IMG/VR virus record: IMGVR_UViG_3300033552_000059
Location: 1 to 21,930 of that record
Direction: 5' to 3' (one strand)
From: a virus
Length of the DNA: 21,930 nucleotides
Shown here: piece after piece, positions 2,570 to 19,490 of the stretch
Layout: the number at the start of each line of letters is the position of its first letter
How positions within the stretch are numbered: position 1 is the stretch's first letter
Translations under genes and position numbers: made by a program
Notes under the pieces: generated by a model
The model's input: only the letters and a program-made list of their open reading frames with translations
What the model was told of the DNA's origin: nothing
Database searches by the model: none

Positions 2570-2577
2570 TATATTTG
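2570..2577 (+). promoter_or_regulatory. Bacteroidetes-type -7 promoter element TATATTTG
   Basis: TATATTTG matches the Bacteroidetes housekeeping sigma -7 consensus TAnnTTTG and lies 15 bp before the ATG at 2593. It is followed by TAA, as are the boxes at 3880 and 4345, giving a shared TAnATTTGTAA core. No clear -33 TTG is seen at the usual spacing. Confidence 0.6.
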
Positions 2578-2592
2578 TAAAACTTTAATGTT

Positions 2593-3069
2593 ATGATAAA
2601 AGAATTAGGTATAATGCTAATGAAAACTAGTATTTTTTATAGTGATACTATGCTAAAAAGAGCAGAAGATTTAGCATTATTAATTGGGTGGATTTATTTT
2701 CTTATGATGTTAATATTTTTAATTACACAATTATTATCGATCGGACAAAATCAAAATAAAATTTCAAAATACAGTTTAATTGTTTTTCCTTTACTTATAA
2801 TTACACAATTTTGTATATTTACATTAGTCTGTATTTTATGTTTACAAATATGTTATTTTTCAATTATACCACTTATATTATATGTAATTACTTGTGTTTC
2901 ATTGTCAAATGAAAATGATGACATCTCAATATATGGAATTACTACAACTGTATGTACATATTTTAATAAATTGCGGGAAAGAGATGTCTTATTAAAACAA
3001 TATAATATCGATTATCAAAATACAATTAAAAAATCAGAAACCTTATGGAAAACTCACAAATTGTCCTAA
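2593..3069 (+). CDS. Predicted inner-membrane protein, 158 aa
   Basis: Two or three strongly hydrophobic stretches: about residues 28-50 (LALLIGWIYFLMMLIFLITQ), about 62-85 (SLIVFPLLIITQFCIFTLVC) and about 85-104 (LCLQICYFSIIPLILYVITC). A charged C-terminal region of about 50 residues follows (NKLRERDVLLKQ...), probably cytoplasmic. No catalytic motif is visible. It is the first gene behind a Bacteroidetes-type promoter and the next gene starts 2 bp after its stop, so the pair probably form a transcription unit. ATGs also occur at codons 8 and 10, so the true start could be slightly later. An early membrane protein acting on the host envelope (for example superinfection exclusion) is possible but unsupported. 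Confidence 0.75.
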   Translation: MIKELGIMLMKTSIFYSDTMLKRAEDLALLIGWIYFLMMLIFLITQLLSIGQNQNKISKYSLIVFPLLIITQFCIFTLVCILCLQICYFSIIPLILYVITCVSLSNENDDISIYGITTTVCTYFNKLRERDVLLKQYNIDYQNTIKKSETLWKTHKLS

Positions 3070-3071
3070 AA

Positions 3072-3842
3072 ATGAGTATTGTAGATCAAATACACGAAGA
3101 ATTTGATCAGGCATTCTCAGATGCAGATTTAATATTAAAAAAACATATATCAGATTTAAATAATGAGTTAAATAATCCTACTATTAAAACTATAGATTAT
3201 TCTGATTTATCAGTAAATTTTAGAAATAGTTCTACTATAGTTAAATTAGTTAGTATTAAATCAGATAAATCTTCTCTTAATAGAGAAATTTCAAAAACTT
3301 CAGATTTAATATCAAAATTAAATAATATCAGATTAAAGTATCCTTATAAGATTATTTCATATTCTCAGATAATTACTATCCTCGAAAAATATGATTTGTA
3401 TATTGCGCCGAGTGAAAATTATACAGATATTTTACCTGAAGACAATGCTAAGCATCTTTTAAATTATAAAAGAAGTGTTAGTGATAAAAATATCAATGGT
3501 AATTTTGATAGTAAGTATCCTATATGCTCCCAAAAGATTAAAAATAATTTAAGTGGATTATCTCATAATAGATATGATGTTCCATTACAGTTTTATGTAT
3601 GTGCTCCAATAAAAATGTTTTCGACTATAAATAGATTTATTATAGGTAAAGAATTATTTTATAATTCTTCTTTAGCTCCTAAATTTACTTATGTAAAACC
3701 AACAAAGATAGAAGATCCAATTATATTATCGCCATTATTTTTAGATAATGAAATTGCAAATGATTTAAAATTATTTCATGTTGTTACTGCATGGGGTCCT
3801 GAAGCAAAAGATCCTCTAGTATTTAATCAACTTAGTAATTAA
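3072..3842 (+). CDS. Hypothetical protein, about 256 aa
   Basis: No recognised family. The N-terminal half (about residues 1-110) is Asp/Ser/Lys-rich and mostly helical. The C-terminal half has mixed strands and aromatics, including a QFYVCAPIKMFS segment and a WGPEAKDPLVFNQL end. No signal peptide, membrane segment or metal motif is visible. I prefer the ATG at 3072, which follows the upstream stop by 2 bp. The same frame is open to an ATG at 3045, but that start would overlap the membrane-protein gene by 25 bp. It ends in TAA 12 bp before the left arm of the hairpin that precedes the HNH gene, so read-through from this gene would transcribe that hairpin. Confidence 0.8.
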   Translation: MSIVDQIHEEFDQAFSDADLILKKHISDLNNELNNPTIKTIDYSDLSVNFRNSSTIVKLVSIKSDKSSLNREISKTSDLISKLNNIRLKYPYKIISYSQIITILEKYDLYIAPSENYTDILPEDNAKHLLNYKRSVSDKNINGNFDSKYPICSQKIKNNLSGLSHNRYDVPLQFYVCAPIKMFSTINRFIIGKELFYNSSLAPKFTYVKPTKIEDPIILSPLFLDNEIANDLKLFHVVTAWGPEAKDPLVFNQLSN

Positions 3843-3853
3843 AAATAGTCTGG

Positions 3854-3900
3854 AGGTTTCATGTTACAATAATTTTTTATAGATTTGTAACATGAAACCT
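3854..3900 (+). repeat. 16-bp perfect inverted repeat covering the HNH start codon
   Basis: AGGTTTCATGTTACAA at 3854-3869 is the exact reverse complement of TTGTAACATGAAACCT at 3885-3900; the loop is 15 nt (3870-3884). The right arm contains the HNH ATG (3892-3894), and the Bacteroidetes-type promoter box TAGATTTG (3880-3887) spans the loop and the first bases of the right arm. RNA read through from the upstream gene would fold with the start codon in the stem, whereas RNA started at the internal promoter would lack the left arm. There is no U-tract, so it is not an ordinary terminator. Confidence 0.85.
3880..3887 (+). promoter_or_regulatory. Promoter element TAGATTTG inside hairpin loop, upstream of HNH gene
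   Basis: TAGATTTG fits TAnnTTTG and is followed by TAAC. The ATG starts only 4 bp after the G, so a transcript started here would be leaderless or nearly so. Its placement inside the loop of the 3854-3900 inverted repeat would allow transcription start to control translation of the downstream gene. Confidence 0.55.
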
Positions 3901-4317
3901 AAAAGAAACATACCTTCTAAATTACATAAATACAAAATTCTAAAAACATATACTTTAGAGAAAATATTTTCTATATTAGAAGATGACTCACAATTAGTAT
4001 ATGGAAAGAAGAATAAGAATCCTTATTTTCAAGATGGTGAGTATTTAGTAAAACTACGAAGAGCACTAATTTTTAAAACTACTGGCATTCAATGTGTATG
4101 TGAAAAATGTACTATGTCTGATCACCATTTTGCATTATCAATAGATGGTGGTGGTGGTTTACATTTAGATTTATATGCACATGATGAATTAGGTGAATTA
4201 AATATGATAACAATTGATCATGTACATCCAAAATCAAAAGGCGGTAAAAATCATATATCTAATTATCAAACTATGTGTAAATTACATAATGAAATAAAAT
4301 CAAATAAAATAAGATAG
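3892..4317 (+). CDS. HNH endonuclease (free-standing, homing-type candidate), 141 aa
   Basis: The C-terminal half carries a Zn-supported HNH fold: CVCEKC (C68, C70, C73), then ITIDHVHP (D109, H110, H112), KSKGGKNHISN (H121, N124) and C129 with H132-N133 in MCKLHNEIK. Cys pairs before and after the beta-beta-alpha-metal core are usual in phage HNH proteins. The N-terminal about 65 residues are basic and may bind DNA. HNH enzymes nick or cut DNA with a single metal ion; phage stand-alone copies are often homing endonucleases. The start codon lies in a 16-bp hairpin stem with a promoter in its loop, an arrangement reminiscent of T4 I-TevI. It ends in TAG, one of only two complete genes here to do so, with TAA two codons beyond. 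Confidence 0.9.
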   Translation: MKPKRNIPSKLHKYKILKTYTLEKIFSILEDDSQLVYGKKNKNPYFQDGEYLVKLRRALIFKTTGIQCVCEKCTMSDHHFALSIDGGGGLHLDLYAHDELGELNMITIDHVHPKSKGGKNHISNYQTMCKLHNEIKSNKIR

Positions 4318-4344: not shown

Positions 4345-4352
4345 TATATTTG
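4345..4352 (+). promoter_or_regulatory. Bacteroidetes-type -7 promoter element TATATTTG
   Basis: TATATTTG followed by TAA, 14 bp upstream of the ATG at 4367. Same core as the boxes at 2570 and 3880, and it heads the run of genes to 7769. Confidence 0.6.
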
Positions 4353-4366
4353 TAAAAATAAAAACT

Positions 4367-5389
4367 ATGGGAGGAAATGCTTTAAAATCAATACCTTTAA
4401 TACGATTAACTAAAAATGAGTTTGAACCATATACAAAAGATGTTATTGATAAATTATATACAAAATATAGTTATATATCTCCCTTAAAATATTATAGAGA
4501 TAAAGAAACATTTGGTGATTTAGATTTAATTTTAAAGAGATCAGAATTAATTTCATGGGATCAAGTCAGAGAAAATTTAAAGGAACTTTTCCAAACTAAA
4601 GAAACCTATAAAAACGATTATACAATTTCATTTGAATATAAAAACTTTCAAGTAGATTTAATTTTTGCTAAAGATGATTGTATTGAAACTACTGAATTTT
4701 TCTTTGCAGCTAATGATCTTAATAATCTTGTAGGTCGGGTTGCTAATGCATTTGGTTTAAAATTAGGTGTTGAAGGATTACATTACGTGATTAGATCTCA
4801 TCATGGAGTATTAAAGAAAAGAATTGAAGTATCAAAGGATCCACAAAAAATTTATGATTTTTTAGGATATTCATACAATAGATTCCTATTAGGCTTTAAT
4901 ACAACACAGGAAATTTTTGATTTTGTATTATCTTCTAAATATTTTTCATCTAAAATATTTGCATTTGAAAATCTAAATCATACGAATAGAACTCGTAATA
5001 GAAAAAGAGTAAATTATACCAGTTTTGTTGACTATATCGAAAAGATTCATATAAATGATTTTGAATGGAAAAATGAGTCAGAATATTTACAACAAATTAA
5101 TGACTTCTTTCCTGAATCTCATCTAATTGATAATATAACTAAATTAAAGGAAAATTTCTTAAAAAATAAAGAATTAGACTCAAAATTCACAGGATCAACT
5201 GTCATAGAACTCACTGAATTAACAGGAAGTGATTTGGGATCATTTATATTTAGGTATAAGGAATATATATTAAATATATTTAGTGACTTTAGAGAATACC
5301 TGGGACTATATACCAAAGAAGAAATTAAAGAACATATACAAAAATTTTACAAAACAAATACAATTAACAATTTAAATAAACAATTATGA
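4367..5389 (+). CDS. Nucleotidyltransferase-superfamily protein (MGGNALK family), 340 aa
   Basis: It begins MGGNALK, a start typical of a phage and microbial family of putative nucleotidyltransferases. The polymerase-beta-like active site is visible: FGDLDLIL with Asp51 and Asp53 following a Gly (the G-D-x-D metal pair), and a third Asp97 in FQVDLIFA on the next strand. Such enzymes transfer a nucleotide to RNA, protein or small molecules using two metal ions; the substrate here is unknown. The rest (about 110-340) is helical, with a basic patch around 205-215 (TNRTRNRKRVN). It has its own promoter box and its stop overlaps the next start (ATGA), so translation is probably coupled to the 67-aa gene. 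It could be a tRNA-end or RNA-modifying enzyme given the RNA genes elsewhere; that is inference. Confidence 0.85.
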   Translation: MGGNALKSIPLIRLTKNEFEPYTKDVIDKLYTKYSYISPLKYYRDKETFGDLDLILKRSELISWDQVRENLKELFQTKETYKNDYTISFEYKNFQVDLIFAKDDCIETTEFFFAANDLNNLVGRVANAFGLKLGVEGLHYVIRSHHGVLKKRIEVSKDPQKIYDFLGYSYNRFLLGFNTTQEIFDFVLSSKYFSSKIFAFENLNHTNRTRNRKRVNYTSFVDYIEKIHINDFEWKNESEYLQQINDFFPESHLIDNITKLKENFLKNKELDSKFTGSTVIELTELTGSDLGSFIFRYKEYILNIFSDFREYLGLYTKEEIKEHIQKFYKTNTINNLNKQL

Positions 5390-7769: not shown

Positions 7770-7799
7770 AAAAGAAGAGACTATTCAGTCTCTTCTTTT
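7770..7799. terminator. Bidirectional intrinsic terminator between convergent operons
   Basis: A 13-bp perfect stem (AAAAGAAGAGACT at 7770-7782; AGTCTCTTCTTTT at 7787-7799) with a 4-nt loop, flanked by an A-run on the left and a T-run on the right, so it can stop transcription from both sides. The portal gene's TAG stop (7781-7783) falls at the stem-loop junction, so its 3' coding end doubles as terminator. Confidence 0.85.
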
Positions 7800-11201: not shown

Positions 11202-11238
11202 ACAAAAGAACGACCCTTTATCAGAGTCGTTCTTTTGT
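11202..11238 (-). terminator. Intrinsic terminator of the 1220-aa gene
   Basis: A 13-bp perfect stem (ACAAAAGAACGAC at 11202-11214; GTCGTTCTTTTGT at 11226-11238) with an 11-nt loop, 21 bp after the TAA of the large gene. The flanking U-rich arm on both strands suggests it can act in either direction. It isolates the large gene from the gp55-gp4-portal operon, which therefore needs its own promoter near 11134-11165. Confidence 0.8.
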
Positions 11239-16460: not shown

Positions 16461-16498
16461 AACTATCCCTGAAGCTTCTAATAACCTCAGGGATAGTT
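16461..16498 (-). terminator. Intrinsic terminator after the 410-aa gene
   Basis: A 12-bp perfect stem (AACTATCCCTGA at 16461-16472; TCAGGGATAGTT at 16487-16498) with a 14-nt loop, followed on the minus strand by a T-rich stretch. It lies between the 410-aa gene and the gp15-like gene. Confidence 0.75.
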
Positions 16499-18404: not shown

Positions 18405-18461
18405 TTATGCTACAGCTAGTGTAGTTTTACCTTTTAGTACGCGAAATGATTCGTCGTTTGT
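18405..18461 (-). other. tmRNA tag-peptide reading frame
   Basis: From an 11-nt stretch (CAAACGACGAA) identical to the start of the E. coli ssrA tag, the frame reads (T)NDESFRVLKGKTTLAVA then TAA. E. coli reads (A)NDENYALAA. The -LAVA end is in the hydrophobic, Ala-terminal style recognised by ClpXP-type proteases. The resume codon is uncertain (ACA at 18461-18459 by alignment). The stretch CTACA/TGTAG (18410-18424) can form a small helix across the tag end, as helix P5 does in other tmRNAs. The tag is longer than most (about 18 aa) and ends in UAA, not UAG. Confidence 0.75.
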
Positions 18462-18598
18462 TTGTTGATATTCTCTCCTCATATCTAACTTATGCAGTCG
18501 AAATCCTTTCGGGCCCATAGTTGTTTATTTTTAGTGGACCCGCCGGTATCGAAACCGGTTGTTGCATACTTAGCATACAAGTGCTAACGAAATTATCG

Positions 18599-18670
18599 AG
18601 CTGACTTTGAGATTCGAACTCACGTATTACAGTTTTGCAAACTGTTGCCTAACCACTCGGCCACATCAGC
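18599..18670 (-). tRNA. tRNA-Cys (anticodon GCA)
   Basis: 72 nt. Anticodon stem ACAGT/ACTGT encloses TTGCAAA, giving GCA. D-arm GCC-AGTGGTTA-GGC type, T-loop TTCGAAT, acceptor GCTGA paired with TCAGC, and U73, the discriminator typical of tRNA-Cys. CCA is not encoded. Two G-A mismatches occur at the acceptor/T-stem junction (positions 7-66 and 49-65), a little unusual. It ends directly before the tmRNA acceptor piece, so the two are probably processed from one transcript. Confidence 0.88.
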
Positions 18671-18685
18671 TTATTATAAAATTAG

Positions 18686-18758
18686 TGAGATATCTCAGAT
18701 TCAAACTGAGGACTTCCGGTTTTAGAGACCAGAGTTTTTTCAACTAAACTAATATCCC
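18686..18758 (-). tRNA. Suppressor tRNA, anticodon CUA (reads UAG)
   Basis: 73 nt with complete cloverleaf: acceptor GGGATAT/ATATCTC (one G-U), D-stem GTTT/AAAC, anticodon stem CTGGT/ACCGG around loop CTCTAAA with U33, anticodon CTA at 18725-18723, variable loop AAGTC, T-stem CTCAG/CTGAG around TTTGAAT, A73. CCA not encoded. The normal tertiary pair G19-C56 is replaced by A19-U56, a compensating change that suggests the RNA is functional and not decayed. The anticodon arm is very close to bacterial tRNA-Trp (loop CTCCAAA), so one C-to-T change could have made it; A73 differs from the usual G73 of tRNA-Trp and tRNA-Gln, so the charging amino acid cannot be told from sequence. Confidence 0.88.
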
Positions 18759-18922: not shown

Positions 18923-19354
18923 TTATTCAATATTTTTGGTTAATTCTCTCTGTAAATCTTTTTCTTTAATACTTTCTCTTTTATCATAAAGCTTTTTACC
19001 TTTAGCTAAAGATAATTCAACTTTAATATAACCCTTATCATTTGCAAATATAGATGTTGCTACGAGAGTTAACCCTTTATCTAAAAGAGATTCTATTTTT
19101 TTTATTTCTTTTTTATTTAATAATAATTTACGTTCTCTATCAACTTGATGATTTAACATAGTTGAATTTTTATATTCAGGAATATGAGTCCCTTTTAAGA
19201 AAACTTCACCATTATTTACATATGCATAAGAATCTTGAAAATTAAATCCATTTTGAAAAATAGATTTAACTTCTGAACCTACCAGAACAATACCACAACT
19301 CCAAGTTTCTAATATTTGAAAGTTAAAGAATGCTTTTTTATTTGTATATCTCAT
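18923..19354 (-). CDS. smpB: SmpB, tmRNA-binding protein (143 aa)
   Basis: The whole SmpB pattern is present: N5-KKAFF and FQILETWSCGIVLVGSEVKS (oligonucleotide-binding barrel, residues 5-31), DSYAYVNNGEVFL (41-53), HIPEY, LNHQVDRERKLLLNKKEI (67-84), GLTLVATSIFANDKGYIKVE, LSLAKGKKLYDKRESIKEKD (115-133). SmpB binds the tRNA-like domain of tmRNA, mimics the missing anticodon arm and directs it to stalled ribosomes. The C-terminal tail that enters the mRNA channel is about four residues shorter than in E. coli, and the conserved Trp of that tail is Leu here. It starts 17 bp after a tRNA-like element and lies upstream of the suppressor tRNA, tRNA-Cys and tmRNA on the same strand, so protein and RNA partner are co-encoded. 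Confidence 0.95.
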   Translation of the reverse strand: MRYTNKKAFFNFQILETWSCGIVLVGSEVKSIFQNGFNFQDSYAYVNNGEVFLKGTHIPEYKNSTMLNHQVDRERKLLLNKKEIKKIESLLDKGLTLVATSIFANDKGYIKVELSLAKGKKLYDKRESIKEKDLQRELTKNIE

Positions 19355-19370
19355 TGTAAAATAAATTAAG

Positions 19371-19439
19371 TGGGAAAGAGTGGATTTGAACCACTGACTT
19401 GCATAATAGCTACTCTGGACCGGACTGAGTTACTTTCCC
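19371..19439 (-). tRNA. tRNA-like element with shortened anticodon arm (identity unclear)
   Basis: 69 nt. Acceptor GGGAAAG/CTTTCCC is fully paired with A73; D-stem ACTC/GAGT with a canonical AGTCCGGTCCA loop; T-stem AGTGG/CCACT around TTCAAAT. But only 16 nt separate the D- and T-stems (A-GCTATTATGC-AAGTC), leaving room for a 2-bp GC/GC stem and a 6-nt TATTAT loop, not a 5-bp stem with 7-nt loop. No anticodon can be read with confidence. It could be a decayed tRNA or a structural mimic (acceptor minihelix plus elbow). Confidence 0.6.
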
Positions 19440-19442
19440 AAA

Positions 19443-19490
19443 AGGAAATCTTTTATATCAGCATTTAGTTATCAATATAAAAGATTTCCT
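19443..19490. repeat. 16-bp perfect inverted repeat after the SPFH lipoprotein gene
   Basis: AGGAAATCTTTTATAT (19443-19458) and its exact complement (19475-19490) with a 16-nt loop, then CCTTTT on the minus strand. It is probably a weak terminator or processing hairpin between the lipoprotein gene and the tRNA-like element. The loop segment CATTTAG (19462-19468) is complementary to CTAAATG at 19489-19495, and TTATCA (19469-19474) to TGATAA at 19494-19499, so pseudoknotted folds are possible. Confidence 0.75.

Follow-up and report, generated by a model that had tools for sequence, protein, structure and literature searches.

In transposons of the IS10, IS50 and IS200 type, the transposase gene is shielded from read-through by a 5' hairpin, which only transcripts entering from outside can form. 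In the T4 system, the long early RNAs of I-TevI, I-TevII, I-TevIII, segB, Aeh1 mobE, e and soc contain hairpins that pair the ribosome-binding site or the AUG, and RNAs lacking the 5' arm arise from late promoters near those genes (PMC2988022, PMC3014915). The initial annotation of the locus described here had named I-TevI, e and soc as precedents, and these papers bear out all three as well as segB and Aeh1 mobE. In Flavobacterium johnsoniae, which lacks Shine-Dalgarno (SD) sequences, structure near the start codon is among the determinants of initiation, and transcription begins 4–5 nt past the −7 box (PMC6847099). The consensus of this box was revised to TAHHTTTG, since among 241 promoters of this species the occurrence of G at −10 is 'virtually zero' (PMC6847099). 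According to two further reports, leaderless mRNAs form a small minority in Bacteroidota (F. psychrophilum, 5.5%; B. theta, 3.7% under 10 nt; PMC9723704, PMC7366714).

We analysed a stretch of 21,930 bases from an uncultured virus fragment (IMGVR_UViG_3300033552_000059), hereafter called the window, which encodes a portal protein of the T4 type and a late sigma factor similar to gp55. The host of the virus is probably a member of the Bacteroidota, since the kin of the window include the Tenacibaculum phages PTm1/pT24 and Lak phages of Prevotella, besides 65 IMG/VR loci. A megablast search of the window against phages returned no match, and an exact-peptide search of IMG/VR found no close relatives of the HNH nuclease, the nucleotidyltransferase, the upstream gene or the portal. 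The features around the start of the HNH gene are collected in Table 1.

Table 1. Features in and around the hairpin at the HNH start codon (window coordinates)
Feature	Position	Strand	Sequence and remarks
Promoter-like site	2570–2577	+	TATATTTG; precedes the gene pair 2593–3069 / 3045–3842
Upstream co-directional gene	3045–3842	+	function not assigned; stop codon 11 nt ahead of the hairpin; proposed source of read-through RNA
Left (5') arm	3854–3869	+	AGGTTTCATGTTACAA; inverted repeat
Possible −33 element	3857–3860	+	TTTC, matching TTTG at 3/4 positions; spacing of 19 nt; lies within the left arm
Loop	3870–3884	+	TAATTTTTTATAGAT; 15 nt, between the arms
−7-type element	3880–3887	+	TAGATTTG; Bacteroidota type but G at −10; extends from the loop into the right arm
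Right (3') arm	3885–3900	+	TTGTAACATGAAACCT; spans the HNH start codon and codons 2–3
HNH start codon	3892–3894	+	predicted transcription start of a putative leaderless mRNA, 4 nt past the −7 element
HNH nuclease gene	3892–4317	+	141 aa; PF14279 HNH_5, PF01844 HNH
Promoter-like site	4345–4352	+	TATATTTG; precedes the downstream nucleotidyltransferase-like gene 4367–5389

The HNH start codon had been described as lying inside a 16-bp hairpin, and this is what we found. The ATG falls within the right arm, the two arms, 15 nt apart, are 100% complementary (16/16 bp), and the whole hairpin measures 47 nt. Its computed RNA fold has a free energy of −25.7 kcal/mol (z −5.6), and none of 200 shuffles was equally stable. 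At 16 bp, its perfect stem is equalled in length by that at 19443–19490 and exceeded by none in the window. When the whole window was shuffled 20 times with a second-order Markov model, no perfect stem longer than 14 bp arose. Among about 1,300 starts in the window and its low-GC relatives, five ATGs lie within a perfect stem of at least 10 bp (16, 13, 11, 10 and 10 bp), and that of the HNH gene is the only start in a perfect stem of at least 14 bp. A second copy of an arm with fewer than three mismatches was not found elsewhere in the window, nor was the two-arm pattern found again in viral contigs, where the exact 16-mer of the arm occurs in three stretches, about as often as expected by chance. 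At the left arm, a GGAGG is followed after 4 nt by a three-codon open reading frame, ATG-TTA-CAA-TAA (3861–3872), the whole spanning 3852–3872 on the plus strand; this arrangement is unusual for a phage with 11% G and possibly arose by chance.

The ATG at 3892 is the only plausible start of the HNH gene, because no other ATG, GTG or TTG precedes the conserved YKILKTYT segment. In read-through RNA, the AUG is computed to be paired, with a probability of 0.00 of being unpaired, and opening the region from −15 to +13 costs 16.0 kcal/mol, as compared to 1.4–8.6 kcal/mol at the 20 remaining starts in the window. The computation therefore agrees with the proposal that read-through RNA hides the AUG, and reproduces the T4 feature of a start codon or ribosome-binding site paired in such RNA. 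In RNA begun at 3888 or 3892, which lacks the left arm, opening the same region costs 0.9 kcal/mol, in line with the open start that had been predicted for the shorter transcript. A source of read-through RNA into the HNH gene is plausible, since a promoter-like TATATTTG at 2570 precedes two overlapping genes, both located between it and the HNH gene, and no terminator was reported in that interval.

The initial annotation had also located a promoter in the loop. The element TAGATTTG is indeed present, with five of its bases in the loop; its last three, TTG, belong to the right arm. The 8-mer TANNTTTG is common by itself, occurring 48 times in the window. Upstream of the relatives' genes, its two variable positions are mostly TA or TC, the spacer is T-rich, and TTTG stands 19–20 nt upstream of the box in 39 of 115 cases. 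The context score of the HNH site lies at the 98th percentile of antisense intergenic decoys and at the 65th percentile of sense sites, although the low GC content of the phage flatters this score and the decoys control for GC only partly. The site resembles the host sigma-A box, and no late gp55-type promoter (TATAAATA) of the T4 kind was found in 3842–3892. Its last G stands exactly 4 nt ahead of the ATG, the spacing of leaderless Bacteroidota promoters, but its base at −10 departs from the H of their consensus. Upstream of genes in related phages, G occupies −10 in 3 of 137 sites, as compared to 197 of 1,370 in coding sequence, and intergenic boxes bearing this G show no sense enrichment (13 sense, 16 antisense). 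Position and context thus suggest that TAGATTTG is more than a chance match, while the G at −10 speaks against it; on balance, we lean somewhat towards an active promoter. The use of a host-type (early/middle) promoter, homing activity and a convergent control of the nuclease, as had been suggested, are putative.

Upstream of 1,302 unique ATG starts, the distance from the G of TAHHTTTG to the start codon peaks at 4 nt (11 sites). Sites are absent at 0–3 and 8–12 nt and increase broadly from 13 nt on, and control motifs gave no peak at 4 nt. Genes of this arrangement occur at L024:15673, L025:5351, L033:3697 and 15565, L040:16175, L045:16754, L055:3174, L061:15149, and L064:7693 and 8041; that at L045:16754 carries the identical TTTGTAAC directly before its ATG. 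Given that F. johnsoniae transcription begins 4–5 nt past the box, the TAHHTTTG-N4-ATG genes should form a leaderless class in Bacteroidota-type phages akin to the Tenacibaculum and Lak phages. As the HNH site shares this spacing, the first base of its RNA would be the A of the AUG, and the internal transcript, originally described as nearly leaderless, would be exactly so. A point against such a start is that transcription beginning one base later would lose the AUG. A limited literature search found no account of the class, which helps the annotation of Tenacibaculum- and Lak-related phages whatever the role of the hairpin. Other leaderless genes proved to be sequestered no more often than ordinary ones (Mann-Whitney p 0.65), and the idea that read-through RNA sequesters leaderless starts as a rule was rejected.

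The assignment of the gene product to the HNH nucleases rests on scores above the cut-offs for both PF14279 (35.9 bits; cut-off 27.5) and PF01844 (26.9 bits; cut-off 21.4). The HNH core is intact, with D109, H110, N124, C70, C73, C129 and N133 invariant in A2, and the protein is not known to be a homing endonuclease. Homologues occur in 66 loci, with 26–56% identity over the matched stretch; no close relative was present in the collections searched or in the genome contigs, and the search for a related phage in which the corresponding site is empty or occupied found none. Among full-length matches, the best (L082, 50%) is a 340-aa fusion gene that overlaps its upstream gene in another gene context, and its start has neither the promoter nor the hairpin. 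Likewise, no hairpin covers the start of the distant HNH genes of phage G, B23 and pf16 or of the further HNH loci examined. The absence of the hairpin from the distant homologues does not refute its role here, as these genes do not occupy the corresponding position.

The minus strand of the window carries several RNA-related features. At 18416–18600, a structured RNA (fold z −5.5) resembles a permuted tmRNA, in which a T-arm and CCA end precede a 5' part GGGCCC...GGATTTCGAC; it scores 30.7 bits with RF04321, below the gathering threshold of 47 (E 4e-4). A 143-aa SmpB-like protein, recognised by eye, is encoded at 18923–19354 and has matches of 39–45% identity in L016, L027 and L045, in whose stretches no tmRNA was found. 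A phage-borne permuted tmRNA beside its own SmpB would be notable. A tRNA with a CUA anticodon (18685–18758; tRNA-Pyl according to ARAGORN) is likely an amber suppressor, although TAG serves as the stop codon of two genes, HNH and portal, and does not occur within any long gene; a reading of the hairpin as coding sequence under TAG = Q was rejected on these grounds. Finally, a gene that resembles a tRNA but has a shortened anticodon arm (19371–19439; Rfam 46.6 bits, missed by ARAGORN) sits 3 nt away from the other perfect 16-bp hairpin (19443–19490).

We propose that the 47-nt hairpin acts as an RNA gate on HNH translation. In read-through RNA from the site at 2570, the left arm would pair with the start region and render the AUG double-stranded. 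Ribosomes of a Bacteroidota host, which are expected to work without SD sequences, would then fail to initiate on it in vivo. The internal promoter-like site would yield RNA from the A of the AUG or an adjacent base, without the left arm; this message, leaderless or nearly so, could be translated. The nuclease would then be made only upon the firing of its own promoter, and not by leakage from its neighbours. Points against this reading are the G at −10, the lack of the hairpin in relatives, the small share of leaderless mRNAs in Bacteroidota and the finding that other leaderless genes are sequestered no more than ordinary ones. For this combination of a hairpin that sequesters the start codon and a leaderless promoter inside it, in the manner of T4 I-TevI and mobE, we consider the chances evenly divided. 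The stronger statement, that the choice of RNA polymerase alone sets HNH translation and that an SD-free switch of the T4 type arose independently in a Bacteroidota-type phage, is put forward tentatively, the balance tipping a little against it. The observation in the initial annotation is confirmed, and its interpretation is partly supported.

In one alternative, the hairpin silences HNH on read-through RNA and TAGATTTG is no promoter, the nuclease being made at a very low level or after the stem is opened by a protein, an RNase or a ribosome. The G at −10 is counter-selected, the burial of the AUG needs no promoter, and a ribosome on the GGAGG-led short open reading frame could melt the left arm. 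However, the GGAGG is probably unused, since Bacteroidota mRNAs naturally lack SD sequences, and the motif stands at the exact 4-nt leaderless spacing, with a good spacer and a three-quarters match to the −33 element. We judge this alternative unlikely.

The palindrome could also be a 47-bp DNA operator, covering the HNH promoter from roughly −38 to +9 and bound by the HNH protein or another regulator. Its midpoint falls between the −33-like and −7-like sites, both of which it includes, but its perfect 16-bp arm exceeds the usual half-sites of dimeric regulators, and the window holds no further near-copy of the arm. I-TevI does autorepress through an operator overlapping its promoter, but that operator is described as a copy of the homing site and not as a palindrome (PMC2988022). 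An operator function seems distinctly improbable.

As a third alternative, the hairpin could serve as a 3'-end terminator or stabiliser of the upstream gene, overlapping the HNH start only because the gap between the two genes is about 50 nt. Three other long hairpins of the window (19443–19490, 11202–11238 and 16461–16498) do start 14–23 nt past a stop codon, but all three have more T in their tails. Among the 79 perfect hairpins of at least 11 bp located just past stop codons in the window and its relatives, the HNH hairpin, followed by AAAAGAAAC, has the lowest T count (1 of 12 positions, most others having 7–10). The terminator scan does not report it, its only report in the region being at 7770–7799. 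Given this lowest T-tail score, the hairpin is not an intrinsic terminator, for which a GC-rich stem followed by a U-tract is expected, and a 3'-end role as a whole is highly improbable. A neutral palindrome, left without function by a recent template switch that copied the gene start in inverse, would suit the mismatch-free arms and the lack of relatives, but is scarcely credible in view of the exact coincidence with a start codon and a promoter-like site at functional spacing.

Returning to the gate on translation, we compared it with the systems described above. The IS10/IS50/IS200-type elements likewise combine a gene of a selfish element with a 5' hairpin, but involve transposases, SD sites and terminal repeats. 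The closest likeness is to I-TevI (in the td intron), I-TevII, I-TevIII, segB and Aeh1 mobE, in which the start of a nuclease gene is paired in a long RNA and a promoter inside the hairpin region, putative in our case, drops the 5' arm. In those homing genes, however, the hairpin sequesters an SD site and a late promoter of the gp55 type is used, whereas here the AUG itself is paired without SD logic, the predicted transcription start coincides with the AUG, and the site is of the sigma-A type. T4 e and soc share the block of read-through RNA by structure and the translation of a short RNA (late in T4, predicted here), but they are SD-led lysis and capsid genes with late promoters and show no homology to the HNH case. 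The leaderless mRNAs of Flavobacteria and Bacteroides resemble it in having a TAnnTTTG promoter directly before the AUG, whereas a sequestering hairpin is not described in the available parts of the reports on them (PMC9723704, PMC7366714). If the gate operates as proposed, a guard against untimely expression of a selfish nuclease would have evolved again in a lineage without SD initiation, in its simplest possible form, a 5'-AUG RNA as opposed to a paired AUG, and the locus would allow leaderless initiation in Bacteroidota to be tested cleanly with two states. The logic of hairpin and late promoter is thus already known from T4; what would be new, if the internal promoter is real, is its SD-free 5'-AUG variant.
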